From Rhodospirillaceae bacterium (GTDB lineage: Bacteria > Pseudomonadota > Alphaproteobacteria > Bin65), in the NCBI GenBank assembly GCA_011523655.1, contig WTGH01000034.1, forward strand, positions 1 to 64,000: a DNA stretch of 64,000 bases. The letters are read 5' to 3'. Positions 4,986 to 39,867 of the stretch are shown here, piece after piece. Below the pieces are notes generated by a model that worked only from the letters and a program-made list of their open reading frames with translations, had not been told where the DNA came from and made no database searches. Positions within the stretch are counted from its first letter, which is position 1; every line of letters begins with the position of its first letter. The translations under genes and the position numbers were made by a program.

Positions 4986-5262
4986 CGGAGACCGACCTAT
5001 CCAGTCGGGGTGTTACGCTCATTCCGGAGAGCGCCAAGCTCACCAACGTCTAGGCAGCAGACGTGCTGAACGTCTCCCGTCCCTTCCTGATCAAGCTCCT
5101 CGACCAGAAGGCATCCCGCATCGGAAGGTCGGCGAGCATCGCCGCATTCGCATGGAAGACGTCATAGCCTACAAGAATGCCATCGACCGCGAATGCGAAC
5201 AGGTGCTCGAGCAGCTGACGCGTGAGGCCCAGACTCGTGACATGGAATATGGCGCCCGGTGA
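4986..5262 (+). pseudogene. Excisionase-type DNA-binding antitoxin, broken
   Basis: Recognisable remnant of the excisionase-fold antitoxin family that normally pairs with PIN-domain toxins. Pieces in order are VTLIPESAKLT, AADVLNVSRPFLIKLL, then in a shifted frame GIPHRKVGEHRRIRMED, VIAYKNAIDRECEQ and LEQLTREAQ. The helix-turn-helix region is interrupted by an in-frame TAG at 5051-5053, where a glutamine/glutamate codon is usual. A frameshift near 5105-5112 breaks it again. No PIN toxin follows; the next gene is an unrelated orphan. The gene therefore cannot make the family-typical protein. Confidence 0.7.
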
Positions 5263-8847: not shown

Positions 8848-8854
8848 CGGGCGC

Positions 8855-12247: not shown

Positions 12248-12365
12248 TTCTCCTGCCTCACCATTACCATCCTAACGATCCTGCAACTTACCCGGAAACA
12301 TCGGGGAGGTTGATCGGCCCCGACCGTGTAAGGGGGTAAACGTCGACAATCCCCGCCACGACAGG

Positions 12366-12896: not shown

Positions 12897-12905
12897 CGGT
12901 GCGCC

Positions 12906-13367: not shown

Positions 13368-13395
13368 TGGTAGGACTCGCGAGCGGGCGGACGGG

Positions 13396-16300: not shown

Positions 16301-17323
16301 TGTGCCCACGCACCGAAGCGCTGGTCCATCGTGTCGGGCCACGCCGCGGCATCGGAGCGCAACCGGGAAAACAGGCCGCCGAGGGAATAGTGCTGCTGGT
16401 AGACAGAATGGTCGGGCATGAGGCCGCGGTCTTCGGCGTAGAGCGCGAAAACCAGCCGCATCAGCGTCGTAATCAGGCCGCCGTAAAGATGATCGGGATC
16501 GCGCCGCGCCAACTCCGTGACGGTTCCGACGCCGCGCGTGTCCGCCGACGCGAAGCCGCGCAGCAGTTCGTGGAGTGCCGCGAGCACCTGCCGCGAAAGC
16601 CTCGTGGAGACTTCGGCCTGTGCATCGCGGCTCTTGGCCAGAAGGGCCGGCAACCGGGCTTCCAGGTCGCTCCCGAAGACCGCCTCCGCCGAAAGGAGCA
16701 TGTCGAACGCGGCCAGGATGGGCCGGCCCGCCGGAAGCGCCATCTGGGCGAACTCGAAGGTGACATGCCCCGACGACTCGCCCTTGGGCGCATGGATGAG
16801 GCGGATGCACTCGTCAGTGCAGAGAAGCCCGGTCGGAACGCCGGTCTCCCGTAGCAGCCGTTCAAATCGGGCGTGGCGAGACGCGATCCAACCCGCGCCG
16901 TCGCCGGGCGGGCGGTCAAGATCCGCGCTGCCGTCCTCCACGCGGACGAGCATCGTCCATTCAGCGTCGGAGTCCTGGTCGCCCCGCACCACCCAAGTGG
17001 GTGCAAGCACAACCTGCAACTCCGGCAAGGAAATCTCGAACGTCTCCCGGTGGGGGTGTCGCATCGACGAGGTCCGCGTCCTCCCAACCCAACCAGTCCA
17101 CGAACACCCGGCGCAGATCGGGAGCACGCCAACGGGTCGACGCGCCATTCCCATCCTCTTCAAGCAGCTCGCGAAAGTCCCGTTGGCGCCCCGAGATGTT
17201 GCGGTCGGGGACCACCTGGGCGTCGACCATGACAGTCGGCGCGACCACGAGGCCCACCGGCTGGACGAAGCCCAGCCATTCCTGGTGCGCGAAGATCAGG
17301 CTGCGACGTTCGCGATCCGCCAT
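13396..17323 (-). pseudogene. drmMI: DISARM adenine methyltransferase DrmMI, apparent N-terminal frameshift
   Basis: A large N6-adenine methyltransferase of class 1 DISARM, about 1308 residues if corrected. The SAM-binding motif reads LDPATGSGAFLVEACRQIS and the catalytic motif VVGNPPFAGKNT. A long C-terminal region would carry target recognition. Translation should begin at ATG 17321-17323 (MADRERRSLIFAHQEWLGF), 3 nt after the drmD stop. That frame runs about 90 residues and then leaves homology at a run of five G (17052-17056, plus strand). Homology resumes in the next frame as HRETFEISLPELQ. Removing one base of the run joins them exactly. In DISARM this enzyme marks host DNA. If the shift is real, only restart near 17064 or slippage could give product. 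Confidence 0.8.
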
Positions 17324-17326
17324 GAC

Positions 17327-20300
17327 CTAGCCTGTCCGCGGCCAGAGGTATACGAGGCCGAGAGGATCGACACGGACGGCGCGCACTCTGTACGCATCGG
17401 CGATTCGGGCCGGTTCGGTCTCGAGCTCGGTCTCAATGGCTTCGAGGCGCCGCGTCCACGCGCGACGGTCGGCCTCGCGTTGACGTCGTTCGGCCTCGTC
17501 GAAGTCGAACATCATCTGCCCATCGTCCTTGCCGGCCGCTTCGGCAATCCTCTTCTTCTGGCGCTCCAACAGTTCGACCATGCTGTGCTTTTCGGTTTTC
17601 GACCGCTCGGCGAGCCGTTTCCTGGCAATCTCCGCGAATTCGCTGGCTCGACCCTCCAGATGCGGCAGCAGATCGGCAATATCGGTTTGCGCCGAAGCCG
17701 CGAGACGCGTCCAGACTGGATCGGCCACGCTGTGCCGCCCCGCTTCGTCGAGCGCCGTTTGCAGGGAAGCCAGCGTCGTCTGCTCTCCTGCCCGGCCGTA
17801 AGGCGTAAGCGGGCCCTGTCGCCGCACGGGATCGATCCAGCGTGCCGTCACCGGCACGATCTCCTCGTGCAGGCGCGCTGCGCGCGGTCCGTAGACGGCG
17901 AGCCGGCCGAGCAGCAGGACGCGCGGAATCGCATCCGGGGCGACCGCCAGACAAGCCTTGGACAAGTCGTGATGGATCAGGCCCTGAGCGGTGAACCGGC
18001 CCAGCAAGCGCCGGGCCACGCGGTGCTCCAGATGCAGGTGCACGGCGTTTTCGCCGAGACGTCCGGTATCCTCGAAGGACACGGGCCGGATGACCGCCCG
18101 ACGGCGCCACTCACCGAAGCTCTCGCCTCTCCGTCTCCGCGCGCGCAACGAATCGAGTGCCGCAGTCCAGCCGGGATCGCTCGCAAGCGCATGGTCTCCA
18201 GCGGGAAAAACGAAACGACGCGGAGTGTCCGGCTCCCGCGTCTGCTGTCCATTGGCCTCGGCTATTGCAGGAGCGCCGGCGAGTCTCAAGCTCATCGACA
18301 GGGTCTGACGGAACTGCGGCGCGGTAAGCCCGATATGGGTGCGCGACCGTTCCAGGCGGGTGCGCAGGCTATCCACTTCCTCACGCAGCTTGTCCTGACG
18401 AAGGCGCGCGTCCTCGAGCTCATCCTCGACCGTCCGCCGCCGTTCTCCGGCTGAGAGATCCCGAATAGACGCAGCCAGAGCATCGATCCCCTCACGGCGC
18501 ATGCCTTCCTTGCCGATTGTCCGGGCAACACGCGCTTCGAGCACCTTCGCGGCGCTGCCGAGCTCCTCACGAATGCGTTCCACCTTGTCCACCAGCACCC
18601 GCAGGACACTGTCTTCCGGACGTTGGTCGAAGACGAAGTACCGACAGAACACCTCGTCGGCGGGCTGCAGCTTGCGGTCGATGCGTCCGTTGCGCTGGTC
18701 GAGACGGCTCGGGTTCCAGGGCAGGTCGAAGTGAAACAGATCACGACAGTGGCGTTGCAGGTTGAGGCCCTCTCGCGCCGCGTCGGTGGCGATGAGAATG
18801 CGCAGCGGGTGGTCGCCCGGCTCGGCATTGAAAGCGTGCTTGATGTCTTCCCGCCTCTGCCGGGAGGTCGTTCCCGTGAAGGTCGCGATCCGTTCGCGCG
18901 CCTTGTCGGAATGCACGATGGCCTCGTTCAAGCAACGCTCAAGCCAAAGGCGTGTGTCTTGGTACTCCGTGAAAATGAGAAGCCGGCGGTCGTTCCACTG
19001 CGGAGGCACGGCCCCGGACACCGAATCAACCGAGCACATATTCGCGTCGATCCACTCCACAATCCGGTGCACGCGCGGATCGGCACCGTAGCGGTTGGCC
19101 TCGGCGATCTCGCGCATCTCGTCGACGAGAGCGAGTTCGCGCACTAACGCGGAACGTGTTTCCGCGCGTCGACTATCGGTCGATGCCGCTGTCGCCGCCG
19201 TCATCAGTTCGGCGAAGTCGAGTTCCGAAGGATCGGGTCGTTCCGGATCGTCCGACACATCGGATTCGGCATCGATACCGCCGTTATGATCGGTCGTATC
19301 GACGCTCCCGTCGCTTGGTTCATCGCCGACGGTCAGGCGTTCGAGATCGGCCTGCAACTCGGCGGAAACCTCGATGGCCTCCGTGGCTCGCTCCAGCGCG
19401 CGTTTCACGCTCTTGCGATGCACCGCGAGCGTTTTCGCGAAGGCTTCGATTGATGATAGCAGGCGCTTTTGCAGTCCGCCGATCACCAGCGCACCTGCGG
19501 CCTGCTTCGATCGTGTCTCGTCCTTCAGACGTTTCTCTCGTTCAAGCCGGTAGGCGTCGAGCATCCTCGGCAGTACGAGTTCCGGCGCGTCCGGCGGCAG
19601 CCCCTCGATATTGACTGGAACCACCGAGCGCTTGGGAAAGCCGCCCTCAAGGGCCCGGATATCGGACTTGAGGCGACGGACGAGCACCTCGTCGAGTTGT
19701 CCCTTGAGCACCCGAACACCTCGGCAAAATCGCTGTGGGTCGAGAATTTCGAGCAGAGCGGAGAAGCTGTTCGAATGCCCGTTGTGCGGCGTTGCCGAGA
19801 GGAACAACCGATGCTCGAAACGAGGCGCGATGTCGCGGATCGCTCGCGTGATTTGGGAATCGATGGCATAGCGCGCGCCGCTCGCGGGAGCGGCGTTATG
19901 CGCCTCGTCCAGGATCAGCAGCGTTTGTGGCGCGAACTCTCCAAGCCAGTCGCGCAAACCCGATGCGTATGTCTCGTCGACAAGCAGGCGGTGAGAGACA
20001 AGAAAGCGGGAGTGGGTCGTCCAGGGATTGACCGAGAAGCCGCGCTCGCGCCGCATCCGGGTCACATACGCCCGGTCGAGAATGGTGAACGTGAGGCCGA
20101 AACGGGCCTCCATCTCGTCCTGCCATTGATCGAGCATCGCGGGCGGGCATGCGACTACAATCCGGTCTATGCGCCGCCGCAACAGCAATTCGCGCGCAAT
20201 GAGCCCCGCCTCGATCGTCTTGCCGAGCCCGACATCGTCGGCAATGAACAGATTGACCCGCGGCAGCCGGAGCGCCTTGCGCAGCGGGTCGAGCTGGTAG

Positions 20301-20641
20301 GCGTCGATGCGGATGCCGGCGCGGAAGGGCGCCTGAAAGAGATTGGGGTCCGTCGCCGTCACGCAATTCCACGACAGCGTGCGGAGATACGCTGCGAACA
20401 GCGCCGGATCGTCGAAGCCCCTGTCGGCCACGGCGGACCAGCCGTCGTCCTCGAGGATGCGGGCGTCTAGTTCGTGCTCCCACAACACCGACAGCGGCTC
20501 GCCCTGCGCGTCGTCGTCAAGGCAGGACAGATCCACAAGCATGGATTCGTCGGGCGACGGAGGCGGCGTCACGTTCTCGACGAGGTAACGGCGTTGGCGG
20601 ACCAGAGCGATGCGGCCGGCTTCGGGAGCGAGCGTCGTCAT
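17327..20641 (-). CDS. drmD: DISARM SNF2-like helicase DrmD
   Basis: A 1104-residue SNF2/RapA-like superfamily 2 ATPase, the hallmark of class 1 DISARM. Motifs: Walker A in ADDVGLGKTIEAGL; DEAH box in LLILDEAHN; LFLSATPHNGHSNSF; LIFTEYQDTRLWLE starting the second lobe; ATDAAREGLNL; and motif VI in NPSRLDQRNGRIDRK. The C-terminal third is charged and predicted to be coiled (REEVDSLRTRLERSR). The start at MTTLAPEAG (ATG 20639-20641) overlaps the preceding abiEii-like stop as ATGA, and 13 possible upstream codons are ignored on that basis. The gene lies 3 nt ahead of drmMI. Confidence 0.92.
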   Translation of the reverse strand: MTTLAPEAGRIALVRQRRYLVENVTPPPSPDESMLVDLSCLDDDAQGEPLSVLWEHELDARILEDDGWSAVADRGFDDPALFAAYLRTLSWNCVTATDPNLFQAPFRAGIRIDAYQLDPLRKALRLPRVNLFIADDVGLGKTIEAGLIARELLLRRRIDRIVVACPPAMLDQWQDEMEARFGLTFTILDRAYVTRMRRERGFSVNPWTTHSRFLVSHRLLVDETYASGLRDWLGEFAPQTLLILDEAHNAAPASGARYAIDSQITRAIRDIAPRFEHRLFLSATPHNGHSNSFSALLEILDPQRFCRGVRVLKGQLDEVLVRRLKSDIRALEGGFPKRSVVPVNIEGLPPDAPELVLPRMLDAYRLEREKRLKDETRSKQAAGALVIGGLQKRLLSSIEAFAKTLAVHRKSVKRALERATEAIEVSAELQADLERLTVGDEPSDGSVDTTDHNGGIDAESDVSDDPERPDPSELDFAELMTAATAASTDSRRAETRSALVRELALVDEMREIAEANRYGADPRVHRIVEWIDANMCSVDSVSGAVPPQWNDRRLLIFTEYQDTRLWLERCLNEAIVHSDKARERIATFTGTTSRQRREDIKHAFNAEPGDHPLRILIATDAAREGLNLQRHCRDLFHFDLPWNPSRLDQRNGRIDRKLQPADEVFCRYFVFDQRPEDSVLRVLVDKVERIREELGSAAKVLEARVARTIGKEGMRREGIDALAASIRDLSAGERRRTVEDELEDARLRQDKLREEVDSLRTRLERSRTHIGLTAPQFRQTLSMSLRLAGAPAIAEANGQQTREPDTPRRFVFPAGDHALASDPGWTAALDSLRARRRRGESFGEWRRRAVIRPVSFEDTGRLGENAVHLHLEHRVARRLLGRFTAQGLIHHDLSKACLAVAPDAIPRVLLLGRLAVYGPRAARLHEEIVPVTARWIDPVRRQGPLTPYGRAGEQTTLASLQTALDEAGRHSVADPVWTRLAASAQTDIADLLPHLEGRASEFAEIARKRLAERSKTEKHSMVELLERQKKRIAEAAGKDDGQMMFDFDEAERRQREADRRAWTRRLEAIETELETEPARIADAYRVRAVRVDPLGLVYLWPRTG

Positions 20642-21660
20642 GCCTTCGTCTCGTTGGCCCGGACCTCGATCAGGGCGCACCGTTCCATCAACCTATCGAA
20701 CGATTCGCTATCGTCGAGCAGCATGCCGTCGGCCAGCATTCGCGCGTAATCGTCGGCGAGAACGGCATGTGCGGCACCTGAGGGAATCAATTGCAGGGCA
20801 CCCGAGACCGCGGCTTCATAGTCGATCCGCTCGCCGCGGGCATCGTTTTCCGGGAAGAACATGGCCTTGTGGCGGGCAACCGACAGGGCGACGGCACGGT
20901 CGGCGAGAGCCACGGCCCCGATCCCCGCCTCGTCGAGGCGTGCAAGATCGTGCCAGTGCCTCGACAGACGCTCGCCGCGGCGCCGTTCCTGTCGGCAGAA
21001 GACGTGGATGGCCGTCGCCTTCTCCCAGAACGTCCGCTCAGCCAACATGACCGTCGGCTGCGCCTCGGGAAACACCAGCTCTAAGACCCAGGCCGCCGCG
21101 TCGCACACAACGCGCCGGCTCGCGTGCGGCTCGCCTGTCGATCGCGCGCCGAATTCGACTATGACTTCCGGGCGAACGAAACCGCTTTCCTCGAAGAGCG
21201 GTTTGTAACCGATGTAGAGCCGATCCGAATCCGCTCTGACTCGTGCCGCGAATCCGGTGCGGGAGAGCCCTTCTTCGACTATCGGGCAGGCCTGGTCCCG
21301 GACCCATTCGGCAAGACGGGCGCGGATGGCTCGCGTCCAACGCTTCTCCTGACTGCGTGAGGGTGGTAGCGCCTCGTCCCCGAAACCGGAAACGAGGTCG
21401 GGTGCGAAGGCACGGATATCGTAGGTTATATCAATGTCTTCCGAGAAACGCCGTATCGCACGCCATGCCTTCGACAGCGACGTGCCGCCCTTGAAGGTCA
21501 AGTGCCCGGCGAATGGAGCATCGAAGAGGGTGCCGAGCGTCGCGACAACCCAGACATCCTTTTCCAAAAGGTGCGCCTTGTGGCTGCTGTTCCGCTCCAC
21601 CACCTCCAGTGCATCGCGCCTGTCGTCGGGCGAGATGTCCTGAAATCGCGCCTCAGGCAT
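20638..21660 (-). CDS. AbiEii-type nucleotidyltransferase (toxin family)
   Basis: A 340-residue member of the AbiEii/AbiGii nucleotidyltransferase family, the toxin half of type IV toxin-antitoxin and abortive-infection systems. The key box reads FKGGTSLSKAWRAIRRFSEDIDITYD, holding the GG(T)S loop and a DxD-type metal site. The family-typical FWEKATAIHVFCRQERRRGE and SRHWHDLARL follow. Known members transfer nucleotides to RNA such as tRNA acceptor ends. It overlaps the antitoxin-like gene by 8 nt and drmD by 4 nt, so it is part of the same transcript as DISARM. Confidence 0.88.
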   Translation of the reverse strand: MPEARFQDISPDDRRDALEVVERNSSHKAHLLEKDVWVVATLGTLFDAPFAGHLTFKGGTSLSKAWRAIRRFSEDIDITYDIRAFAPDLVSGFGDEALPPSRSQEKRWTRAIRARLAEWVRDQACPIVEEGLSRTGFAARVRADSDRLYIGYKPLFEESGFVRPEVIVEFGARSTGEPHASRRVVCDAAAWVLELVFPEAQPTVMLAERTFWEKATAIHVFCRQERRRGERLSRHWHDLARLDEAGIGAVALADRAVALSVARHKAMFFPENDARGERIDYEAAVSGALQLIPSGAAHAVLADDYARMLADGMLLDDSESFDRLMERCALIEVRANETKA

Positions 21661-22249
21661 GCGCGAGGCAGGCGCTCACCGGCTCCGCCATCCAGATAGG
21701 CATTACTGCCCGCGCAGCCGCAAGCTCGTCCCGATCTTCTTCTGAGAGCGTCGGCAGAATCGCTTCGAGGCCGTCCTCGACCTCTTCTGGACCGAGCCAT
21801 GCCAGGGCGCGGATGACGTCTCCTGCCTTACGGTGTGGCGCCGCCAGCTGCCAGCGGGGAGCGTGGCGCAATTCGACGATGGACGAACCGAAGTGCAGCC
21901 TGCGACTGGGACCGGACGTGAGATAGACGGCGCGCACCGGATTTTGCGTGGTTAGGCCCAGGCAGTTTGCCGCCGCGCCGCCGCACGGCACGACGGTCTC
22001 GCCCCACATCTTGGCAAGTGCGGCAACCACTTTGGCGACCCGCGGCGCCCGAGAACCGAAGCGGGTCTCGATGGGGCGCATGTAGACACCTTGGCAAATC
22101 CGCATGAGAGCACCGGATCGCGCGAGGCGCGACAAAGCCTGATCGACCGCGGCTCGCTTGCCGAGGTGAAGCAGCGCAGCCGGACACAGCGGCGTCGCCT
22201 CCGGAAGGGCCTCTGCATGCTCCATGATGCGACGGGAAAGCCCGCGCAT
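21653..22249 (-). CDS. AbiEi-type/DUF6088 regulator (antitoxin family)
   Basis: A 198-residue protein with an N-terminal winged-helix region (AAVDQALSRLARSGALMRICQGVYMRP) and the C-terminal AbiEi-like sheet (RAVYLTSGPSRRLHFGSSIVELRHAPRW). Antitoxins of this type repress their own promoter and neutralise the paired nucleotidyltransferase. ATG 22247-22249 has a good ribosome site (GGGAGAGA, about 6 nt upstream); the longer TTG start would overlap that site. It is the first gene of the nine-gene defence operon, so autoregulation could set the expression of the whole DISARM unit. That is inference. Confidence 0.82.
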   Translation of the reverse strand: MRGLSRRIMEHAEALPEATPLCPAALLHLGKRAAVDQALSRLARSGALMRICQGVYMRPIETRFGSRAPRVAKVVAALAKMWGETVVPCGGAAANCLGLTTQNPVRAVYLTSGPSRRLHFGSSIVELRHAPRWQLAAPHRKAGDVIRALAWLGPEEVEDGLEAILPTLSEEDRDELAAARAVMPIWMAEPVSACLAHA

Positions 22250-22330
22250 GATCGTCTCTCCCAACTCAATTTGTCAGAAATCTAGTGGCAAGACTATCGT
22301 TATACAACACTGAAGCAAATCAATTCCTGC
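22250..22330 (-). promoter_or_regulatory. Probable promoter region of the defence operon
   Basis: The AT-rich 80 bases before the abiEi-like gene should hold the operon promoter, because no gene precedes it on this strand. A TATAAC hexamer (about 22298-22303, minus strand) is a possible -10, but no matching -35 at 17 nt is convincing. This is placement by context. Confidence 0.3.
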
Positions 22331-22771: not shown

Positions 22772-23896
22772 ATGACCCAAAGGTTTTTTGAGGAACGCCA
22801 AGAGCAGTCCGAAGCCAAGGCGCGGATCGTATCGAAGTACTTTTCGGCATGGGCACAGGTCATCATGCCCTCTGCAAAGCAGAACGGGGGCAAGATCGCC
22901 TATATTGACCTCTATGCCGGCCCAGGACGTTACAAGGACGGCGCCGCCTCGACGCCACTTTTGGTTCTCCAGACTGCGATAAACCATCCTCAGATGGCTC
23001 AAATGCTTGTTTCATACTTTAACGATGCTGAAATCAATAACATTAGGACATTGGAATCGGAAATTCATAAACTCCCTAATATTGAACGCTTGAAGCACTT
23101 TCCCATAATCAATTGTGGAGAAATTGACGGCGAAGCTGAGCAGTTTTTTGTTCAAACAAGATTGGTTCCTACTTTTTCATTTGTTGACCCTTTCGGCTAC
23201 AAAGGACTTTCATTGAAAATCGTTAAGGGTGTGATAAAGGACTGGGGTTGCGACTGCATATTCTTTTTCAACTATAACCGTATTAATGCTGGAATCACCA
23301 ATGACTATGTTTCTTCCCATATCAACGCTTTATTTGGCAGAACCCGTGCCAATGAACTACGGTGTACACTGCCAGGCCGCCCTCCTCAATTCAGAGAAGC
23401 CGCGATTCTAGAGGCACTTGCACAGGAAATTAAGGAACTTGGCGGCCGATATGTGTTACCATTTACGTTCAAGAATAACTCTGGTACCCGGACATCGCAT
23501 AAGCTTATTTTCGTTTCGAAGAGCTTCAAGGGTTATGAAATCATGAAGGAAATCATGGCCAAAGAAAGCTCCTCAGAGGATGAAGGCGTGCCTTCCTTCA
23601 CTTATTGCCCTGCTGAAGCTTCAATGCCGCTCCTGTTTTCCTTAACCCAACCAATTGCGCACCTTAGAAGAAGCCTTCCGCATGTCTTTGCCGGACGAGA
23701 GCTGACTTTTAAAGAAATTTATGAAGCTCACAGCGTCGATACACCATATGTGAAAAAAAACTATCGCGAGGTTCTCAAGCAGCTCGAGACCGAACGCATC
23801 GTGTCTGCTCGGTCGACGACAGGTAAGCGACGATCCTTCACTTACCCTAGCCATGTTCGCGTAACATTCACTGAGAGCAAGGTGCATGGCAAATAG
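22772..23896 (+). CDS. tcmP: Three-Cys-motif partner protein TcmP
   Basis: A 374-residue protein of the TcmP family, named for its pairing with a three-cysteine protein. Typical pieces are the N-terminal KYFSAWAQVIMPSA, the YIDLYAGPGRY box with a methyltransferase-like glycine loop, the FVDPFGYKGLS strand, and FFFNYNRINAG. The C-terminal winged-helix-like part has FKEIYEAHSVDTPYVKKNYREVLKQLE. The biochemical role of the family is not established. It overlaps the next gene by 11 nt, supporting co-expression, and both are AT-richer than the chromosomal genes. A defence role is plausible from the surroundings but unproven. Confidence 0.85.
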   Translation: MTQRFFEERQEQSEAKARIVSKYFSAWAQVIMPSAKQNGGKIAYIDLYAGPGRYKDGAASTPLLVLQTAINHPQMAQMLVSYFNDAEINNIRTLESEIHKLPNIERLKHFPIINCGEIDGEAEQFFVQTRLVPTFSFVDPFGYKGLSLKIVKGVIKDWGCDCIFFFNYNRINAGITNDYVSSHINALFGRTRANELRCTLPGRPPQFREAAILEALAQEIKELGGRYVLPFTFKNNSGTRTSHKLIFVSKSFKGYEIMKEIMAKESSSEDEGVPSFTYCPAEASMPLLFSLTQPIAHLRRSLPHVFAGRELTFKEIYEAHSVDTPYVKKNYREVLKQLETERIVSARSTTGKRRSFTYPSHVRVTFTESKVHGK

Positions 23897-24680
23897 CTCA
23901 TCAATTGAATGGACGGAAGCTACCTGGAATCCAGTGGTGGGCTGCTCCGTCCTATCGCCAGGTTGTACCAACTGCTATGCCATGCGCATGGCTCATCGCC
24001 TGACGGCAATGGGACAAGAGAAGTATGCGGGGACAACCCGCATATCGGCGGGACGACCAAAATGGAATGGAACTGTACGCGTCGACGACAATAGTATTGA
24101 CTTGCCGCGGAGTTGGAAAACTGGACGAATGATATTCGTAAACTCAATGTCCGATCTGTTCCACCACGAGGTACCTTTGGAAGCCGTGCAGCGAATTTTC
24201 GCAACAATGCGCGAGACGCCGAGACACACTTACCAAATCCTGACAAAACGATCCGAACGACTGGAGATACTATCGCCCAGTATTAGTTGGCCCGAAAATG
24301 TATGGATGGGTGTTAGTGTAGAAAATGCAGATTACTTGTACCGGGTTAACAATCTAAGGAATTGCGGCGCGCGCACTAAATTCCTTAGTCTTGAACCGCT
24401 ACTGGGCCCACTTCGGAATATGGACCTCTCGGGCATCCATTGGGTAATCGCCGGCGGCGAGAGCGGACCTGGGGCACGCCCGCTCCGCCCTGCTTGGGTT
24501 AGGACTATTCGCGACCAATGTGTTAGGGCGGGCATTGCGTTTCACTTCAAACAATGGGGCGGCCATATCAAGAAGAAAGCTGGTCGTACCTTGGACGGCC
24601 GAACATGGGATGAGTTTCCGCGGCAAGCCCAATCGGATGTTGAAGATCATCTTCGTCCCTCAATTTTGGCACGGGCCTAA
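23886..24680 (+). CDS. DUF5131 (phage Gp37/Gp68-type) three-cysteine protein
   Basis: A 264-residue protein of the DUF5131/Gp37-Gp68 family. The N-terminal WNPVVGCSVLSPGCTNCYA gives the three-cysteine signature resembling a radical-SAM-like iron-sulphur site. Family-typical segments follow: IFVNSMSDLFH, TYQILTKRSERL, WMGVSVEN, FLSLEPLLGPL and WVIAGGESGPGARP, and near the end FHFKQWGG. It is the usual partner of TcmP and overlaps tcmP here. The reaction is not known; an RNA or nucleotide modification is a common guess. The gene looks intact. Confidence 0.88.
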   Translation: MANSSSIEWTEATWNPVVGCSVLSPGCTNCYAMRMAHRLTAMGQEKYAGTTRISAGRPKWNGTVRVDDNSIDLPRSWKTGRMIFVNSMSDLFHHEVPLEAVQRIFATMRETPRHTYQILTKRSERLEILSPSISWPENVWMGVSVENADYLYRVNNLRNCGARTKFLSLEPLLGPLRNMDLSGIHWVIAGGESGPGARPLRPAWVRTIRDQCVRAGIAFHFKQWGGHIKKKAGRTLDGRTWDEFPRQAQSDVEDHLRPSILARA

Positions 24681-26931: not shown

Positions 26932-27555
26932 GTGCAGCTTCGCTACGAGACCGGTCTTACCGGCGAGGAGTATGTCAGGGCCGAGGCGTGGCGCGATGCA
27001 AGGCTGGAGCGCTGCCCGAATCACCCGGACGGCGGATGTTCGCTGTCAAGCCACGGCACCTACTCGCGAAAGACGCCGCGCGGCGCGAAGATCGCTCGCT
27101 GGTATTGCCGCGAGAGCCGCACGACCTTCAACCTGCTGCCCGACTGCCTGGCGGCGCGGCTGCCGGGAACCCTCGACGCGCTGGAAACCGTCGTCGCCCA
27201 TGCCGAACGCACGCGGAGCCTGACGGCGACGGCAAGGGCGCTGCGCTCCGACGCTGTCGAAATTCCCGGCGCCATACGCTGGGTCCGGCGCCGGGTCCGT
27301 CTCGTTCGCCGCCTCCTGACCTCCGTCGCCGAACTGCTGCCCGAACGGTTCGCACTCGGCATCGCCGGGCTCGGTCCGCTTCGAGCACATCTCGACACCG
27401 GCAGGGCGCTGGTGGAGCTGCGCCGTCTGCTCGCGCCGCACCTGTCCGTGCTGCCGACGCCGCTCGGCTTTCGCCGGCATCGTGACCGGGTCTCCGAACA
27501 CCCTTCCGGATTCCAACACAAGATGGGCCATGACCCGCCGCCTTCCGGCGCTTAG
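26932..27555 (+). CDS. Zinc-ribbon/HTH-like protein of a recombinase cassette
   Basis: A 207-residue protein beginning at a GTG. The N-terminal part has CPNHPDGGC, HGTYSRKTP and ARWYCRESRTTFNLLPDC, resembling the zinc-ribbon and helix-turn-helix start of transposon proteins (DUF6431-like, from memory). The rest is arginine- and leucine-rich (VRRRVRLVRRLLTSVAELLPERF), suggesting a helical DNA-binding domain. It precedes two serine-recombinase-like genes on the same strand and likely belongs to the same element. The start was chosen because VQLRYETGLTGEEYVR opens the conserved part; the frame upstream is open but uninformative. Confidence 0.55.
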   Translation: MQLRYETGLTGEEYVRAEAWRDARLERCPNHPDGGCSLSSHGTYSRKTPRGAKIARWYCRESRTTFNLLPDCLAARLPGTLDALETVVAHAERTRSLTATARALRSDAVEIPGAIRWVRRRVRLVRRLLTSVAELLPERFALGIAGLGPLRAHLDTGRALVELRRLLAPHLSVLPTPLGFRRHRDRVSEHPSGFQHKMGHDPPPSGA

Positions 27556-27617
27556 CGTCCGAGTCCCTGCGGATCGAACCGCAGGAATACGGGCAGGACC
27601 GGAATGTGGGGCAAGAC

Positions 27618-28388
27618 ATGACAGTGGCCGCTCGACGGATCCCGAACGGTGTCGCGCAGGCAGCGCACCTGGCCCCGGAGCACCCGGTAGCGGGCTATGT
27701 GCACGCCGCCACCCAGCTCGAAGGAGACTCCCTCCGCAAGCAGCTTGAAGCGGTCCTCCGGTACGCGCGCCACCGCGGCATGCAGCTCATACGAATCTAC
27801 TGCGACGAGTGCAGGGGCAGCCTGCGTATCGACAACCGTCCCGGCCTCCGGCAGCTGTTCCGCGACATCGAATGCGGGGCGGGCGATTTCGGGGCCGTCC
27901 TGCTCCTCGATCCCAGCCGCTGGAGCCGATCCCCGGATCCGGAACACGGCCTGGTTCTTGAGGACCGCTGCAAAAGGGCCGGCATCGACGTGCACTACTG
28001 TGCCGGGGATCCGTTTGGCGACGAACTCCCGGTTTCGACGCTCGTCAGGAGCATCGAGCGCGCCATGGTTCGCGACTATCCACGCAAGCTGACCGAATCC
28101 CATGCGTCCGCGCGCCGGGCTTGCGAAGAGAGCGAACGCCGGCGGCAGGTCCGGGAGCGCCGTCGACCGCCCGGCAGGGCGGAACTCCGGGCCCGGCAAT
28201 GCGGCCGATGCCGAATGAGCCGACCACCGACCTCGGTCGCTGCCGATGCCATGAACGGCAAGCCCGCACCCAGCGCACCGATGCTGGTCGTTCGAGCACG
28301 CGCCGTCGATCAAGATAACGCGACCGAACCCGCATTCGGCGACTTCACGCCAACCCCCGATCGCGCCAGCACGACGAGGACCTGGTGA
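27618..28388 (+). CDS. Serine-recombinase-like protein lacking the catalytic serine
   Basis: A 256-residue homologue of the resolvase catalytic domain, clearly related to the next gene: it shares NRPG, LLDPSRWSR and IDVHYC with the partner's YENRPGMQQ, VYDISRWGR and VQVHYC. Where the active recombinase has YLRMSTDLQ, this protein has YVHAATQLE, so the nucleophile serine is alanine and the nearby arginine is histidine. It also lacks the large C-terminal DNA-binding part; the tail is low-complexity. It ends in a GTGA overlap with the following recombinase gene. Possible roles are a regulatory partner or a decaying copy. Confidence 0.7.
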   Translation: MTVAARRIPNGVAQAAHLAPEHPVAGYVHAATQLEGDSLRKQLEAVLRYARHRGMQLIRIYCDECRGSLRIDNRPGLRQLFRDIECGAGDFGAVLLLDPSRWSRSPDPEHGLVLEDRCKRAGIDVHYCAGDPFGDELPVSTLVRSIERAMVRDYPRKLTESHASARRACEESERRRQVRERRRPPGRAELRARQCGRCRMSRPPTSVAADAMNGKPAPSAPMLVVRARAVDQDNATEPAFGDFTPTPDRASTTRTW

Positions 28389-29971
28389 GAGAAATGTCGA
28401 CTGCCAACCCGAATCCGCAATCGAAACCGCAGACACCGCAGACACCGCGGCACCGCGCCGTTGCCTATCTCCGGATGTCGACCGACCTCCAGCAATACTC
28501 GACCGAGAACCAGAAGGCGGCCATCGAGAAATACGCCGCCGAGAACGAGATGGAGATCGTCGCCACCTATTCGGACGAGGCGAGAAGCGGCCTGCGCTAC
28601 GAGAACCGGCCCGGCATGCAGCAAATGCTGGCGGATGCGCAAAGCGCGGATGCCGGTTTCGATACGATCCTCGTCTACGACATAAGCCGATGGGGCCGGT
28701 TTCAGGATCAGGACGAGGGCGCCGCCCTCGAATTCGCGTGCAGAAAGGCCAGGGTCCAGGTCCACTATTGCATGGAGCAATTCGTCAACGACGGCAGCCC
28801 GATGTCGACGGTGATGAAGAGCCTCGGGCGATATGCGGCCGCCGATTACAGCAGCAAACTCTCGGCTAAGGTGTTCGCCGGCCAGTGCCGGCTCATCGAG
28901 CGCGGCTACCGCCAGGGCGGCATGGCGGGCTACGGGCTGCGCCGGATGCGCATCGACCAGAAAGGAGAGCCGCAGGGCGTTCTCGACTGGGGCCAGCGCA
29001 AGAGCCTGCAGACCGACCGGGTGATCCTCGTGCCCGGACCGGAAGAAGAGGTCGAGACCGTCCGGTGGATGTACCGCGAGTTCATCGACGGCGGCAGGCT
29101 GGAAGGCGAGATCGCCGCGGCTCTCAACGAGAAGGGGGTCGCGACGGATCTCGGCCGGCCCTGGACCCGCGGCACCGTCCACCAGGTTCTGACCAACGAG
29201 AAATACATCGGCAACAACGTCTTCAACCGGCATTCCTACAAGCTGAAGAAGACCCACAAGGACAACCCGCCGGAGGAATGGGTCCGGGCGGACGGCGCCT
29301 TCGAGGCGATCGTGGACCCGCAACTGTTCTTCACCGCCCAGGGCATGATCCGCGAGCGCAACCGCCGGTTCTCCAACGACGAGTTGCTGGACCGCCTCAA
29401 GCGGCTCTTCAAGCAAAAGGGCTTTCTCTCCGGCATCGTCATCGACGATGCCGAGAACATGCCGTCGAGCGCCTGCTATGCCGCGCGCTTTGGCAGTCTG
29501 GTCCGCGCGTACACGCTGGTCGGCTTCACGCCCGAGCGCGACTACGAGTACATCGAGATCAACCGGACGCTCCGCCGCAGCCACGCCGCGGTCGTCGCCG
29601 AGACGATAGAGGAAATCGAAAGGATCGGCGGCGCCGTCTCGCGCGATCCCGCCACCGACCTGCTGACCGTCAACGGCGAGTTCACCGCCTCCATCGTGCT
29701 GTCCCGCTGCCGGCCGACGAAGGCCGGATCGAAGCGCTGGAAGATCCGCCTCGACACCGGGCTCGCGCCCGACCTGACGGTCGCGCTGCGCATGGATGCG
29801 GCGAACGAGGCGGTGCTCGATTACTACCTGCTGCCGTTGCCGATGCTGGACACGAACCGCATCCGGCTCGCTGAGGAAAACGGGCTGGTGCTGGACGCCT
29901 TCCGCTTCGAGACCCTGGATCATTTCTTCGCCATGGCCGAGCGGGCCCTCATCTCGGAGCTCGCGTCATGA
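28385..29971 (+). CDS. Large serine recombinase
   Basis: A 528-residue site-specific recombinase. The N-terminal resolvase domain has the nucleophile in AVAYLRMSTDLQ, then QQYSTENQKAAIEKYA and VYDISRWGRFQD. The recombinase domain follows with RQGGMAGYGLRRM, EVETVRWMYREFIDGG and GTVHQVLTNEKYIGNNVF. It can cut and rejoin DNA to mobilise the cassette. The start is GTG 28385 by overlap with the previous stop; an ATG at 28394 gives a product three residues shorter. It overlaps the ParB-like gene by 4 nt (ATGA). Confidence 0.88.
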   Translation: MREMSTANPNPQSKPQTPQTPRHRAVAYLRMSTDLQQYSTENQKAAIEKYAAENEMEIVATYSDEARSGLRYENRPGMQQMLADAQSADAGFDTILVYDISRWGRFQDQDEGAALEFACRKARVQVHYCMEQFVNDGSPMSTVMKSLGRYAAADYSSKLSAKVFAGQCRLIERGYRQGGMAGYGLRRMRIDQKGEPQGVLDWGQRKSLQTDRVILVPGPEEEVETVRWMYREFIDGGRLEGEIAAALNEKGVATDLGRPWTRGTVHQVLTNEKYIGNNVFNRHSYKLKKTHKDNPPEEWVRADGAFEAIVDPQLFFTAQGMIRERNRRFSNDELLDRLKRLFKQKGFLSGIVIDDAENMPSSACYAARFGSLVRAYTLVGFTPERDYEYIEINRTLRRSHAAVVAETIEEIERIGGAVSRDPATDLLTVNGEFTASIVLSRCRPTKAGSKRWKIRLDTGLAPDLTVALRMDAANEAVLDYYLLPLPMLDTNRIRLAEENGLVLDAFRFETLDHFFAMAERALISELAS

Positions 29972-30864
29972 CCGGCCGGGACGACGGCATCACGGTCATT
30001 CGCATTCCGGTCGACCGGATCAGGGTCCTCAATCCCCGGGAACGCGACAGGAAGAAGTTTCAGGAGGTCGTCGACAGCATCGGAAGGGTCGGCCTCAAGC
30101 AGCCCATCAAGGTAACCCGCCTCAACGGCTCGGGCGGTGGGGCCGAATACGGGCTGGTCTACGGCCAGGGCAGACTCGAGGCGTTCATTGCGCTCGGGGA
30201 GAAAGAGATCCCGGCGATCGTCGCCGACCTTTCCGAGGAAGACAGCCTGCTCATGAGCCTGGTGGAGAATGTCGCCCGCCGGCACCGCCGCCCGACCGAG
30301 TTGCTTCGGGAGATCGGCGCTCTCGGAAAGCGCGGCTACACGGATGCGCAGATCGCGCGCAAGATCGGGTTTTCGCCGAAATACGTTCACGACATCCGCC
30401 GGCTGCTGGGAGCCGGCGAGGAACGGCTTTTGGATGCAGTCGAGGCGGGCCGGATGCCGCTCAACGTGGCGGTGGACATCGCAGCGGCGGAAGACGGACG
30501 CGCACAGCAGGTCTTGGCCGACGCCTATGAGAGCGGGGCCCTGAGCGGCAAGCAACTGATCGAAGCCAAGCGCCAGGTCGAGCGGCGTCAGAGATTCGGC
30601 AAGGCGCACCTGTCGATCCAGGCGAAGCGCGGCCGGAATCGCACCTCGTCGACCCAGCTGATCCGCGCATTGAAGAACCAGGCGCAACAGCAGCGCCTGA
30701 CGATCAAGCGGGCGGAAATCACCGCCAGCCGGCTCCGGCTCGTCGTCCAGGGTCTCCACATGCTGCTGGCCGACGAGCATTTCGTCACCCTGCTGCGCGC
30801 CGAGAAGGTCCACACGATGCCCGCCCCGCTCGCGCGCCTGATCGAGGAACTCAGGGAGGACTGA
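29968..30864 (+). CDS. ParB/RepB-like partition protein (first of two)
   Basis: A 298-residue ParB-family protein. The N-terminal ParB/sulfiredoxin-like domain has VDRIRVLNPRERD, SIGRVGLKQPIKVTRL, the YGLVYGQGRLEAFIALGEKEIPAIV box and the arginine pair in ENVARRHR. The helix-turn-helix is in YTDAQIARKIGFSPKYVHDIRRLLG. No ParA gene lies next to it. The ATGA overlap with the serine recombinase suggests it works with the recombinase, perhaps in synapsis or regulation, rather than in plasmid partition. That role is inference. Confidence 0.82.
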   Translation: MTGRDDGITVIRIPVDRIRVLNPRERDRKKFQEVVDSIGRVGLKQPIKVTRLNGSGGGAEYGLVYGQGRLEAFIALGEKEIPAIVADLSEEDSLLMSLVENVARRHRRPTELLREIGALGKRGYTDAQIARKIGFSPKYVHDIRRLLGAGEERLLDAVEAGRMPLNVAVDIAAAEDGRAQQVLADAYESGALSGKQLIEAKRQVERRQRFGKAHLSIQAKRGRNRTSSTQLIRALKNQAQQQRLTIKRAEITASRLRLVVQGLHMLLADEHFVTLLRAEKVHTMPAPLARLIEELRED

Positions 30865-30865
30865 C

Positions 30866-31501
30866 ATGGCCGGCAGAGTCCCGACCGGTTTCGAGCTCGA
30901 AAGCGTGACGATCGCGGTGGCGGACATCCTCCCGCTCAAGAGAATCCCCGCCAAGATAAAGACGGGCCGGAAATACCGTCAGATTACGGCGTCGATCCGG
31001 GAAATCGGCATCGTCCAGCCGCCTGTCGTGGCGCGCCACCCCAAATTGCCGGGCAAGTTCCTGCTGCTGGAGGGTCACCTGAGGATCGAGGTGCTGAAGG
31101 ACCTGGGGATCGAAGAGGTGGTCTGCCTGGTTTCCAGCGACGACGAGACCTTCACCTACAACCGGCAGGTCAACCGCCTCGCGACGATCCAGGAACACAG
31201 GATGATCCTGAAGCTCGTCGAGCGCGGCGTTTCCGAACAGCGGATCGCCGAGGCCCTCGACGTCAACGTTGCCAGCATCCGCGCCAAGCTAAACCTGTTG
31301 CACGGCGTCTGTCCGGAAGCGGTGGAACTGCTCAAGGACAGGCAGTGCCCGATGGCAACCGTTCGGGCCCTGAAGAAGATGAAACCCGTACGGCAGGTGG
31401 ACGCCGTGGAAATGATGATCGCGATGAACAACTACACCGTCCTTCATGCGGGTCCGGCAAGTGGTACGACATGGCCGTCGCCGAGGAGAACGAGCGGCTG
31501 A
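30866..31501 (+). pseudogene. RepB/ParB-like protein (second), truncated C terminus
   Basis: It starts 1 nt after the preceding ParB-like gene. Recognisable parts are LPLKRIPAKIKTGRKYRQI, SIREIGIVQPPVVARHPK, the LLLEGHLRIEVLKDLGI box, and NRQVNRLATIQEHRMILK with a helix-turn-helix in VSEQRIAEALDVNVASIRAK. Homology ends after MMIAMNNYTV; family members continue for about 80 more residues. The remaining residues (from LHAGPASG) look like out-of-frame read-through across a junction near 31440. The gene is probably cut by the neighbouring conjugation fragment, and 29 nt separate it from the end of traG on the other strand. Confidence 0.65.
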
Positions 31502-35445: not shown

Positions 35446-35676
35446 AATGGGAAACTGTTCCTCATCGGGCGGGAGGAGCACTTCGCGACCCACGAGTTCC
35501 GGCGGCGGTAGAAGGCCGGCATTGCTCGACCTCGGCGCCCGCCGCATCGCCGATATGGAGGAGGCAGGCATCGGCATCCAAGTGCTCTGGTCGGTGTCGC
35601 CCGGCGCCGACCGGCTCCCGGCGGCCGACCTGCCCCGGGCGACCAAGGAGAGGATCGCGCACGGCAACGCCCGGAT
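35446..35676 (+). pseudogene. Amidohydrolase N-terminal fragment
   Basis: KLFLIGREEHFATHEF resembles the start of an amidohydrolase (metal-ligand region EEHFAT). After a TAG and frame change comes LLDLGARRIADMEEAGIGIQVLWSVSPGADRLPAADLP, the next conserved stretch of that family. It then runs directly into one copy of a 68-bp inverted repeat. Only about 70 codons remain, so the gene is dead. Confidence 0.55.
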
Positions 35677-35738
35677 GAAGCTCCAGGCGCGGACCGGATC
35701 CCAGACAACCGGTTGTCCGCGGCGCCGTCCGCCGCGGG
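35671..35738 (+). repeat. Inverted repeat, copy A
   Basis: About 68 bp beginning CCGGATGAAGCTCCAGGC, nearly identical (a few mismatches) to the reverse complement of 36437-36505. Copy B lies in the DUF2285/DUF6499-like coding frame, so copy A is a duplicated inverted piece of that gene fused to the amidohydrolase fragment. Confidence 0.8.
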
Positions 35739-35854
35739 CTCGCCCCCGCCCTTCGTAAATAGATTCTGGCAATCCCGCCTTCGCAGGACCCGCGCTACTC
35801 CTGCGGTCTCGGCACGCGGTAACGGCGCCGGCGGCGGGCTTCGACCCGATAACG

Positions 35855-36394: not shown

Positions 36395-37173
36395 ATGACC
36401 CATGCGGCGGCGGGGAGCGCCGCGGGGCGCGGACAGGCCCGCGGCGGACGGCGCGGCGGACAGCCGGTTGTCTGGGATCCGGTCCGTGCCTGGAGCTTCA
36501 TCCGGGCGAGCCGGGCCTACCGCAGGGCATGGCTGCGCCGCCTTCCGTCCCCCGGCCTGCCGGAGGCTGCGGCCATTCCGATCAGGCTCCAGTCGGCGTC
36601 GGACCTAGCCGCCCTCGACTGGGGCCTGCTGGCCTGGGAAGACCCGTATGCGGAGAACGGCTCCGTCTCGCCCTTCTGGGCGCGGGGTCCTATGGCGGAC
36701 GGCAGGGCGGTGCGGGACACGCCGCCGCTGGCCGCGCTGGCGTCCGCGGGCGGCGCCTCGCTGGCGGGTCTGCGGCTGGCGGACGGCGCGCTGGTGCTGA
36801 AGATCGAGCGGCCCGGCGCGGCGGTCCAGGTCCGCCTTCCCGGCGGCACGGTGTTCCCGGAGGACGGCGGACTGGAGTTGGTGCGCGCGGTCGTGCACAT
36901 CGAGGACGTCTGGTCCTGCGTCCCGGTCCCTCGGCCGGGGCGGGTACGGGGGACGGAGACGGAGAGCTCCTGGCCGCCCTGGAAGGCAACGCGGAAGGCC
37001 GGACCTACAGGGAGATCGCCGCGGCGATCTGGGGTCCGGACCGGGCGGAGAAGGAATATTATGTCGGCGGCTGGATGCACTCGCGGATCGGGCGCCGGCT
37101 GAGGAAAGCCCGGGCGATCGTGAAGCGGTACCGCGACCTGGCGCGCAGCGCCGGGGGCGATTCCGGCCCGTAG
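36395..37173 (+). pseudogene. DUF6499/DUF2285-like regulator, frameshifted
   Basis: The first part has QPVVWDPVRAWSFIRASRAYR and LDWGLLAWEDPYAENG, resembling the DUF6499 start, then LADGALVLKIERPGAAVQVRLPGG. After a frame change in the GC run near 36925-36960, homology returns as ELLAALEGNAEGRTYREIAAAIWGP and MHSRIGRRLRKARAIVKRYRDLA, a DUF2285-like helix-turn-helix. Such proteins are DNA-binding regulators common on integrative elements in Alphaproteobacteria. One missing base would restore a 259-residue protein, so an assembly error is possible. Confidence 0.6.
36437..36505 (-). repeat. Inverted repeat, copy B
   Basis: Partner of copy A at 35671-35738. It lies within the N-terminal codons of the DUF6499/DUF2285-like pseudogene. 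The copies are about 700 bp apart and enclose the Calx-beta/barrel remnant. Confidence 0.8.
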
Positions 37174-37451: not shown

Positions 37452-38660
37452 CTATCCCTCTGCTGCCGTCGGCCCCGGGCAATCCCGGTAAAGGTTGGCC
37501 TCGATCCGGTCGGAGACCCGCCGCGCCGCCTCGTGCACCGATTCGCGCGCCAGATGCGCATAGCGCGCCGTCGTCTGCACCTGGCTGTGGCCGAGCAGGC
37601 GGCCGATCATCGGCAGGCTCTCGCCAAGCGCCAGCGCCCGCGACGCGAACGAGTGCCGGCAGTCGTGCAGCCGCATCTTCTCCAGTCCGGCGCTGTCGCG
37701 AATCTTCTCCCAGTGCCGCTGAAGGCCGGACATGGCGTTGCCGTTCAGCGCTCCCGGGATGACATGGGGGTTGCCGCCGGCCCGCGGGATGCGCGCCAGG
37801 ACCTCGGCGGCCGCCGGCGACAGCTGCACCGTCCGGGGACCCGTCTTGGCGTCGCGAAGGCGCATCTCCCGCGCCTCCAGGTCGACCTGCGCCCAGCGCA
37901 GGGTGAGGATCTCGCTCTTGCGACAGCCGGTCAGCAGCAGCAGGCGGATCGCCAGCGCGGCGTACATGACGGCGCCGCCGCCCGTTTCCGCCTCGTCCAG
38001 CGCCCGGCCGAGGCGCCGGAACTCCCCGTCGGTCAGGAAGCGCTCGTGCCGGCGCTGCCGGTTCATCGCGATCTGCCGGCACGGGTTGCTGCCTTCCGGT
38101 ACAAGCTCCCGCTCCTCGGCCGCCCGGTAGATGCGAGACAGCATCTCGACCGCCCGGTTGGCCGCAGTCGGCGTCTTGCCGAGACTGTGATGGAACGCCG
38201 ACACCGCCGCATGGTCCAGCGACAGCGCCGGCTTGCCGCCGAGCCTCGGCAGGATGTGCCTGTCGATCGCATACCGATAGGACCTCGCCGAGGCCGCCTT
38301 CAGGCGCACCGCCACGACCTCCTTGAGATAGAGTTCCGCCAGGTCCGCCACCGTCGGCCCCTTCGCCTCCGTCACCGCCATCGGCTCGGGGACCGGCGCC
38401 TCCCCGGCCTTGATCCGGGCGACGATCAGCGCCGCCCGGCGGCGCGCCTCCTCCGCGGAGATCACGCCGTGGCGCCCGACCGTCACCCGCTTGCCGTTGC
38501 TGCCACCCGCCCGGGTCTGCACGACGTAGACCTTGCGCCCCGTGGGATAGACCCGCACCCCGAAGCCCAGCAGCTCGCTGTCCCAGAACACCGTGTCCTT
38601 CCCTGCGGTCAGCGCCTCCACGGTGCGCCGCGAGATCGTCGTCCGCCCGAGCTTGGCCAT
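37452..38660 (-). CDS. Tyrosine integrase (tandem copy 1)
   Basis: A 402-residue integrase with the DUF4102-like N-terminal domain (TVFWDSELLGFGVRVYPTGRK), a core-binding domain near residues 100-200 (ADLAELYLKEV) and a full catalytic domain: arginine in LTGCRKSEILTLRW, RLHDCRHSFASRAL, IGRLLGHSQ and tyrosine in TTARYAHLA. It would catalyse excision or integration of an element. A paralogue lies 25 nt upstream on the same strand. The start at ATG 38658-38660 gives the normal N terminus. Confidence 0.9.
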   Translation of the reverse strand: MAKLGRTTISRRTVEALTAGKDTVFWDSELLGFGVRVYPTGRKVYVVQTRAGGSNGKRVTVGRHGVISAEEARRRAALIVARIKAGEAPVPEPMAVTEAKGPTVADLAELYLKEVVAVRLKAASARSYRYAIDRHILPRLGGKPALSLDHAAVSAFHHSLGKTPTAANRAVEMLSRIYRAAEERELVPEGSNPCRQIAMNRQRRHERFLTDGEFRRLGRALDEAETGGGAVMYAALAIRLLLLTGCRKSEILTLRWAQVDLEAREMRLRDAKTGPRTVQLSPAAAEVLARIPRAGGNPHVIPGALNGNAMSGLQRHWEKIRDSAGLEKMRLHDCRHSFASRALALGESLPMIGRLLGHSQVQTTARYAHLARESVHEAARRVSDRIEANLYRDCPGPTAAEG

Positions 38661-38685: not shown

Positions 38686-39867
38686 CTACGCCGCTTCGGC
38701 TTTGCCGTCGCGGGACAGCAGATCGCCGCCGATGCTGTCCCCGACCTTCGCCGCCGAAGCCCGCTCGGTGTCGCGCGCGAGATGGGCGTATTTGACCGTG
38801 GTCATCACCGTCCTGTGGCCGAGCAGCCGCGCGATGACCGGCAGTCCCTCGCCGATCGCCAGCGCCTGGGAGGCAAAGGAGTGCCGCAGGTCGTGAAGCC
38901 GCACGTCCTCCAGCCCGGCGCGCGCCCGCAGCCGGTTCCAGAGCGGGTCGAGGCGCGCGAGGCGGCCTTCCGTCTTCCCGCCCGCGATCACCCAGGGATT
39001 GCCCCCGGCGCGCGGTATCCGCGCCAGCACCCGTTCCACCGCCGGTGTGAGCGGCACCCGGCGCGGTCCCGTCTTGGTCTCGCGCAGCCGCAGCTCGCCC
39101 GCCGTGCGGTCGACGTCGTCCCACCGCAGCGTCAGGATCTCGTTCCTGCGGCAGCCGGTCAGCAGCAGCAGGCGGACCGCCGCGACCGCCGAGGCCATGA
39201 GCGGTCCCTCGGCCTCCGCCTCGAACAGCACCCGGCCGAGCCGGGCGTATTCCTCCCCGGTCAGGAACCGCTCGCAGCCGTGCTGCGCATAGCGCTTCAC
39301 CGACCGGCACGGATTGGGCCGTGCCGGCGTCATGCCCCACGCCACCGCCAGTCTGAACATCCTGGAGAGCACGCCGACAGCCTGGTTGGCTTGGGCGGGC
39401 GTGTCCCGCAGCCTGTAGTGCAATGCCGCGGCATGGGACCGGTCGACCTCGCCCAGCTTCAGCCCGCCGAGCGCCGGCAGGATGTGCCGGTCGAGCAGGC
39501 GCCCGACGACCGCCGCCGTTCCCGGCCGGCAGTTCCGCGTCACATGCGCGTCCATGTAGCGCGCCGCCAGGTCGGCCACCGTCGGCTCCTTCGGGGCGGG
39601 CGCCGCCGGGTCCTCGCCGCGCCGGATGCGGTCGACGATCTCCGCCGCCTTCTTGCGCGCCTCCTCGGCCGTCATGTCCACGCACCGGCCGATGACGGCG
39701 CGCTTCGGCAGACCGCCCGGCACGCGCGCCTGGGCGACGAAGACCTTGCGCCCGGTGGCGTGCACCCGAACCCCGAACCCCGGCAGCGCGCTGTCCCAGA
39801 ACACCCGGTCGCCGCGCTCCACGGACAGGGCGTCGATGCTTCGCTTGCTGAGCTTGACGGTCGCCAA
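38686..39867 (-). CDS. Tyrosine integrase (tandem copy 2)
   Basis: A 393-residue paralogue of the downstream integrase with the same layout: VFWDSALPGFGVRVHATGRK, ADLAARYMDAH, LTGCRRNEILTLRWDDV, RLHDLRHSFASQAL, IARLLGHRTVM and tyrosine in TTVKYAHLARD. All catalytic residues are present. Start TTG 39865-39867 has a GGAGA ribosome site about 9 nt upstream. The two copies align over their whole length but differ widely, so they are an old pair rather than a fresh duplication. The large non-coding stretch beyond the start contains candidate binding sites. Confidence 0.88.
   Translation of the reverse strand: MATVKLSKRSIDALSVERGDRVFWDSALPGFGVRVHATGRKVFVAQARVPGGLPKRAVIGRCVDMTAEEARKKAAEIVDRIRRGEDPAAPAPKEPTVADLAARYMDAHVTRNCRPGTAAVVGRLLDRHILPALGGLKLGEVDRSHAAALHYRLRDTPAQANQAVGVLSRMFRLAVAWGMTPARPNPCRSVKRYAQHGCERFLTGEEYARLGRVLFEAEAEGPLMASAVAAVRLLLLTGCRRNEILTLRWDDVDRTAGELRLRETKTGPRRVPLTPAVERVLARIPRAGGNPWVIAGGKTEGRLARLDPLWNRLRARAGLEDVRLHDLRHSFASQALAIGEGLPVIARLLGHRTVMTTVKYAHLARDTERASAAKVGDSIGGDLLSRDGKAEAA

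Follow-up and report, generated by a model that had tools for sequence, protein, structure and literature searches.

A stretch of 64,000 nucleotides from the alphaproteobacterium Rhodospirillaceae bacterium (assembly GCA_011523655.1, contig WTGH01000034.1, positions 1 to 64,000), which as a whole we call the window, contains a row of five genes in which a large serine recombinase (LSR) stands before two genes for ParB-like proteins. A preliminary description had read the row as a cassette of a zinc-ribbon protein, two serine recombinases and two ParB-like proteins, and the five open reading frames indeed lie where it placed them, all on the plus strand:

26932-27555, plus strand: gene 1, a zinc-ribbon-like protein; an optional neighbour outside the conserved core.
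27606-28388, plus strand: gene 2, a paralogue of the LSR catalytic domain without the serine; Resolvase domain only.
28385-29971, plus strand: the LSR, with PF00239 and PF07508; catalytic residues kept.
29968-30864, plus strand: ParB1, a protein of ParB_N plus RepB type; PF02195 and PF07506 above cut-off.
30866-31501, plus strand: ParB2, of RepB/ParB type and broken off; PF07506 matched over profile positions 2-94 of 185.
31431-31441, strand not assigned: the ParB2 break point, where homology to three copies of the genus stops; the 3′ end of ParB2 and the putative RNA described below are missing.

The joints are also as described: gene 2 and the LSR overlap by GTGA (28385-28388) and the LSR and ParB1 by ATGA (29968-29971), and 1 nt separates ParB1 from ParB2. 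A gap of 50 nt lies between gene 1 and gene 2.

Is such a row a property of one genome? Among seven genomes of the genus, the window genome included, five have the LSR, in six copies, and gene 2, LSR, ParB1 and ParB2 follow one another in this order in all six. For a wider survey, genome contigs were scanned with 13 LSRs, and in the best 80 of at least 577 confirmed relatives the trio of LSR, ParB1 and ParB2 was scored by profile hidden Markov models. At least 1.9 kb follows the LSR in 73 of the 80 loci, and 71 of these 73 have the order LSR-ParB1-ParB2; of the two exceptions, L126 has no ParB2 match, and in L143 the match is shorter and falls outside the position filter. All seven short loci have a ParB1 match. 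The record titles of the loci include Pseudomonadota, Acidobacteriota, Planctomycetota, Verrucomicrobiota and one Binatota bin, it being noted that bins may be contaminated. On plasmids, 236 records match the LSR, 58 of them over at least 80% of its length. Thus, the gene order extends over several phyla and is not unique to this genome, and LSR-ParB1-ParB2 is very likely a real conserved module. It might be argued that the five genes are chance neighbours that merely piled up in a gene-rich mobile defence island, since the window is rich in defence genes and genes 1 and 2 are local additions. For the trio this is refuted by its 71 loci over several phyla, so that the idea is hardly credible for the row as a whole, although it stands for gene 1.

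The LSR has a Resolvase and a Recombinase domain (PF00239, E 9.9e-23; PF07508, E 7.6e-24), and all of 52 sequences keep its Ser32 and Arg30. The solved structures related to it by sequence and by fold are serine recombinases and integrases, the fold matches covering residues 21-327. Pfam did not find any zinc-ribbon family in it, the C-terminal fold being barely tested, and the C-terminal 200 residues, a region barely tested as well, gave no convincing match. Among the cysteines of the 52 sequences none is invariant after C119, and C129, C168 and C442 are nearly so. The one match given by the C-terminal region, the homing endonuclease I-Ssp6803I (Z 9.2, rmsd 4.0, 121 aligned), lies near the level which the tool calls "common" and was left unused. 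A phage origin was also considered and rejected, as just one of 174 matched phage records covers at least 80% of the LSR. Thus, the protein resembles serine integrases such as those of phiC31, Bxb1, SPbeta and TP901-1 in its catalytic and recombinase domains and its invariant serine and arginine; unlike them, it has no recognised zinc ribbon and no convincing match for its C-terminal 200 residues, and it sits in a fixed operon with two ParBs, often with a downstream RNA.

Both ParB proteins carry the RepB domain (PF07506), and ParB_N (PF02195) is above cut-off in ParB1 and below it in ParB2, whose predicted structure has an alpha/beta N-terminal part followed by a helical remainder. No ParA was found by Pfam among the five proteins, nor next to the trio in any of seven plasmid loci that are annotated. 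The cassette ParBs therefore share ParB_N and RepB domains with those of ParABS and RepABC systems, but the cassette differs from these in having no ParA and in having two different ParBs behind a recombinase. The coupling of ParA-less ParB-like proteins to a large serine recombinase, which the preliminary description had pointed out, is upheld as a widely conserved order on accessory DNA. It had also been stated there that the combination was not known as a described element, and literature searches, limited to openly licensed PMC text, gave no description of the trio. Orphan proteins of the ParB-CTPase fold have been described on mobile elements (PMC12704722); in the main text of that article the words "recombinase", "integrase" and "RepB" do not occur.

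The first two genes have a different standing. Gene 2 matches in Pfam the Resolvase N-terminal domain alone, and its alignment to the LSR shows alanine at the place of the catalytic serine in all six genus copies; a nearby arginine is kept in five of them and is histidine in the window copy. The "two serine recombinases" first proposed are therefore not upheld: the LSR has its catalytic residues, but gene 2 is catalytically dead. Its dN/dS of 0.31-0.71, as compared with 0.21-0.35 for the LSR, shows that it is constrained, though less than the LSR. Among the 80 loci kept in the survey gene 2 is found only in L067, L068 and L069, of which L067 and L069 are the genus copies G2 and G6 under second labels. 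Gene 2 is a probable regulatory partner of the LSR: in this sponge-symbiont genus it would probably pair with the LSR and tune or inhibit it.

For gene 1 no Pfam family passes its cut-off (DUF6431 reaches E 0.08), and as the gene is present in only three of the six genus copies, its place as a core part is lost; it is a loose, optional neighbour. Relatives of gene 1 occur in eight plasmid records, of which four were viewed, three annotated and one unannotated, and in all three annotated ones three tyrosine-recombinase/integrase genes lie immediately downstream. RIT elements consist of three tyrosine recombinases, and relatives of gene 1 directly precede such trios; the cassette differs in having no such trio, its recombinase genes being of serine type. 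Around the five-gene copy in G001 (L043), imperfect repeats of 52-87 bp (4924-5010, 7482-7533 and 12718-12803) stand inverted across the copy and may mark the ends of a separate element bearing gene 1. In two betaproteobacterial loci (L083, 7359-7871; L137, 7315-7749), a gene for a Cys-rich, zinc-finger-like protein unlike gene 1 immediately precedes the LSR in the same orientation.

What lies behind ParB2 in the relatives? In 36 of 93 rows, which represent 34 distinct loci, a conserved element of about 130 nt lies behind the stop of ParB2, in most cases 1-70 nt beyond it; it occurs in 10 plasmid records, and the intact relatives that have it include three genus mates. RNAalifold, applied to 30 of 35 copies (L072, L082, L091, L119 and L132, divergent near the 3′ end, were omitted), gave 28 pairs, 12 of them with two-sided changes. 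Of the cells counted, 97.6% are paired; covariation is 0.208 against 0.103 after shuffling, and 0 of 500 shuffles was as high on any measure, where it is to be noted that kinship can inflate this test. Slid structures pair at 25-43%, a comparison which favours the predicted structure because it was derived from the same sequences. Indels whose lengths are not multiples of three argue against a reading frame. In the three genus mates it is 99-100% identical, yet synonymous sites of ParB2 differ by 32-45%. Two copies that are 99.8% identical, G202 and G294 from different genomes, diverge inside the element, with apparent compensatory differences in one helix. A search of Rfam 15 with eight loci, seven of them bearing the element, gave no match at gathering score, and positions 2800-3300 of L040 gave nothing up to E 1. 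Several hairpins stand behind the core: one has variable arms and in many cases a loop of CATA type, another of unrelated sequence is frequently present, and a long one, the terminal hairpin, ends the series. The first of them has a stem of at least 6 bp in 41 of 49 copies, with 30 distinct arms, against 27.2 after shuffling, a result supportive but weak because the DNA is GC-rich. In L104 (Ruegeria conchae) a second copy of the element lies at 16379-16510, 5 kb downstream of the first.

Such palindromic hairpins may also be looked at from the side of DNA: the element might be mainly a recombination or ParB-binding site whose palindromes mimic RNA helices. This would suit the sharp edge of homology at the last hairpin, and the element is kept beside broken ParB2 genes and even alone. 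However, departures from pairing are G-U in 35 cases and A-C in 9 (one column in which G-U is commonest excluded), the paired bases form several nested helices with internal loops, the element is on the operon strand in all loci examined, and in L221 the terminal hairpin is followed by a terminator-like run of T. We therefore regard a DNA site as rather unlikely, though deserving consideration, and judge from the aligned copies that the element is quite probably a structured RNA.

The RNA keeps close company with ParB2. Of 385 genomes of the class, 14 contain it, at 17 places in all, and 20 contain the LSR at E <= 1e-100; five of the RNA-positive genomes have no LSR at this threshold. When the 17 places and G006 are taken together, ParB2 or its remnant stands directly upstream in all 18, being incomplete or broken in five. 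The exact 26-nt pattern of the RNA core occurs in 23 contigs of a viral collection, with ParB2 directly upstream in 16; another five are cut within 100 nt before the pattern. On a tree of 59 LSR rows the RNA label needs 13 changes, where several rows labelled as without RNA are contig ends or truncations. In a search aimed at loci outside the alphaproteobacteria, the RNA model gave among 61 sources only four copies known from BLAST and one match at E 0.96; the downstream sequences of the others are mostly unrelated to one another.

The place of the trio on plasmids is best seen in Sphingobium, in which it lies between a zincin-like gene and DUF2493. Among 50 rows listed out of 114 matching records, five cover the whole query, 35 begin only after the RNA, and 10 match the ParB2/RNA part only. 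Six of the 35 were viewed; none of them has the trio there, and in each a ParB located elsewhere adjoins a ParA-type or AAA ATPase. Since the trio is absent from most of the listed relatives of the same backbone, which keep their own ParA-ParB, it is optional cargo and not a part of the partition backbone, and with this the possibility of an ordinary plasmid backbone, raised in the preliminary description, falls away. The same plasmids bear on the idea that the trio is a stability module of plasmids or integrative and conjugative elements, with the recombinase as resolver of multimers and the ParBs as an aid to segregation, serving maintenance and not movement. The ParBs are indeed RepB-type, and many copies are on conjugative plasmids. 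Nevertheless, none of the loci viewed has a ParA adjoining the trio, Sphingobium plasmids have a ParA-ParB of their own whether or not they carry it, and copies are found also on chromosome-sized contigs (L083, L086 and L137), so that this function seems improbable, if by no means negligible.

As to the ends of the element, homology stops at RNA coordinate 197-199, which is the end of the last hairpin, in seven pairs among five close loci, whose right flanks are of three distinct kinds. Near the ends of the element lie the structured RNA downstream of ParB2 and, upstream of the LSR, a palindrome-like motif in two parts. In L106, L118, L125, L092, L117 and others, two neighbouring motifs of the types GGAAA..TTGCCC and GGAAAC..TTTCC (variants elsewhere) stand between the LSR and the preceding gene, and this pair is possibly the operator of a regulator. 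Alignment to an empty site, by which the preliminary description had meant to define the ends, was run for the copy G1a downstream of pyrG and found none: in five genus mates the match stops with pyrG, and nothing more matches over up to 10 kb downstream of it (less than 4 kb for G000). A Sphingobium repeat of about 70 bp that flanks the element in L147 was rejected as an attachment site, because L148-L150 do not have its left copy, so that recombination between plasmids is the better explanation. One may further suppose a switch for DNA inversion or phase variation, in which the LSR flips local segments under regulation by the ParBs, as the DNA upstream of the LSR changes abruptly between close relatives and one Roseomonas pair has an inverted flank. 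Yet a general repeat search found no consistent inverted repeats framing an invertible segment, and the Roseomonas junction is about 2.5 kb away from the LSR; such a switch is very unlikely.

The window copy itself is damaged, contrary to the intact gene row first described. ParB2, about 298 aa long in relatives, loses similarity near codon 190, and the frame beyond is unrelated to them; its DNA homology ends at about 31431-31441 against three genus copies and at 31396 against two. The missing end was searched for elsewhere in the window genome with a best match of only E = 0.8, and the RNA model gave no match in this genome. Because the ParB2 end and the RNA are missing, the copy is probably no longer mobile. 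What the window holds may be the decayed copy of a module for site-specific recombination that is, or once was, mobile, which we would rate at about an even chance.

Elsewhere in the window, a Class 1 DISARM-like set (DrmC, DrmB, DrmA, DrmMI and DrmD by PADLOC) occupies 6245-20680 on the minus strand. Between its genes lie those for a TIR-like protein (12366-12896) and for a protein of PDC-M50A (12906-13427), and the set is adjoined by a toxin-antitoxin pair of AbiEi/AbiEii type (20638-22264, minus strand). In pAtC58 a DUF6088/AbiEii pair likewise adjoins the LSR-ParB trio. Genes for TcmP (three-Cys-motif partner), which also matches the candidate defence family PDC-M30A, and for DUF5131 follow at 22772-24680 on the plus strand, with a GC content far below the surroundings. 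On the other side are an inverted repeat of 84 nt (35668-35751 and 36425-36508; 92% complementary, arms 673 nt apart) and two tandem related genes (37543-38592 and 38771-39805; DNA 68% identical), integrase-like judging by their protein starts. A defence role for the cassette was considered and dropped, as PADLOC found nothing in genes 1-4 and only weak matches of ParB2 to unrelated models.

How, then, could these parts work together? For phage LSRs, the gating or assembly of the synapse falls to extra domains or directionality factors. In the cassette, the LSR would integrate or rearrange the element, and the two ParBs, loaded near its ends, might take over this task; ParB-aided synapsis was suggested already in the preliminary description. 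The RNA would be the 3′ part of the operon transcript and might scaffold or regulate the LSR-ParB complex, a part in recombination which we consider possible but doubtful. That the cassette is a mobile recombination module in which the ParBs, together with the RNA in alphaproteobacteria, assist or control the LSR may well be true, and we hold this reading at even confidence. Several points weigh against it. The function of the ParBs is taken from their predicted fold, and the RNA is predicted from sequence. Moreover, the RNA is absent in 11 of the 20 LSR-positive genomes of the class and from all tested loci of betaproteobacteria, Acidobacteriota, Planctomycetota and Verrucomicrobiota, and is therefore dispensable for some LSRs of the family; in two viral-collection contigs with sufficient room (L217 and L228) it stands without ParB2. 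Other close pairs lose homology elsewhere than at the last hairpin, and the comparisons gave edges of homology but no excised or circular form, precise left end or attachment site.

In L217 the motif that elsewhere stands upstream of the LSR lies close before the RNA, an arrangement resembling an internally deleted derivative; this is a single case, and L220 has the same RNA. Carried further, it would mean a new class of mobile element, in which an LSR with no recognised zinc ribbon forms a ribonucleoprotein together with two ParB-type clamps and an element-encoded structured RNA, the RNA helping to choose or assemble the recombination site, and with the RNA and the upstream control motif persisting alone as a minimal derivative moved in trans, as in L217. 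We regard this as a long shot. IS607/IS605-TnpB and IS110 are transposons with element-encoded guide RNAs, and they likewise have a recombinase gene and a structured RNA near one end; unlike them, the five proteins of the cassette include no TnpB or DEDD recombinase domain, and there are two ParBs instead.

What does the trio mean for the families concerned? To many genes now annotated as plasmid partition proteins it gives a function by association. Serine recombinases are widely used in genome engineering, and short DNA sites, with a single directionality protein in some cases, are generally held to be all that they require. With an operon that ties an LSR to two orphan ParBs in several phyla, and to an RNA in alphaproteobacteria, roles of ParB proteins and of RNA in recombination become testable.

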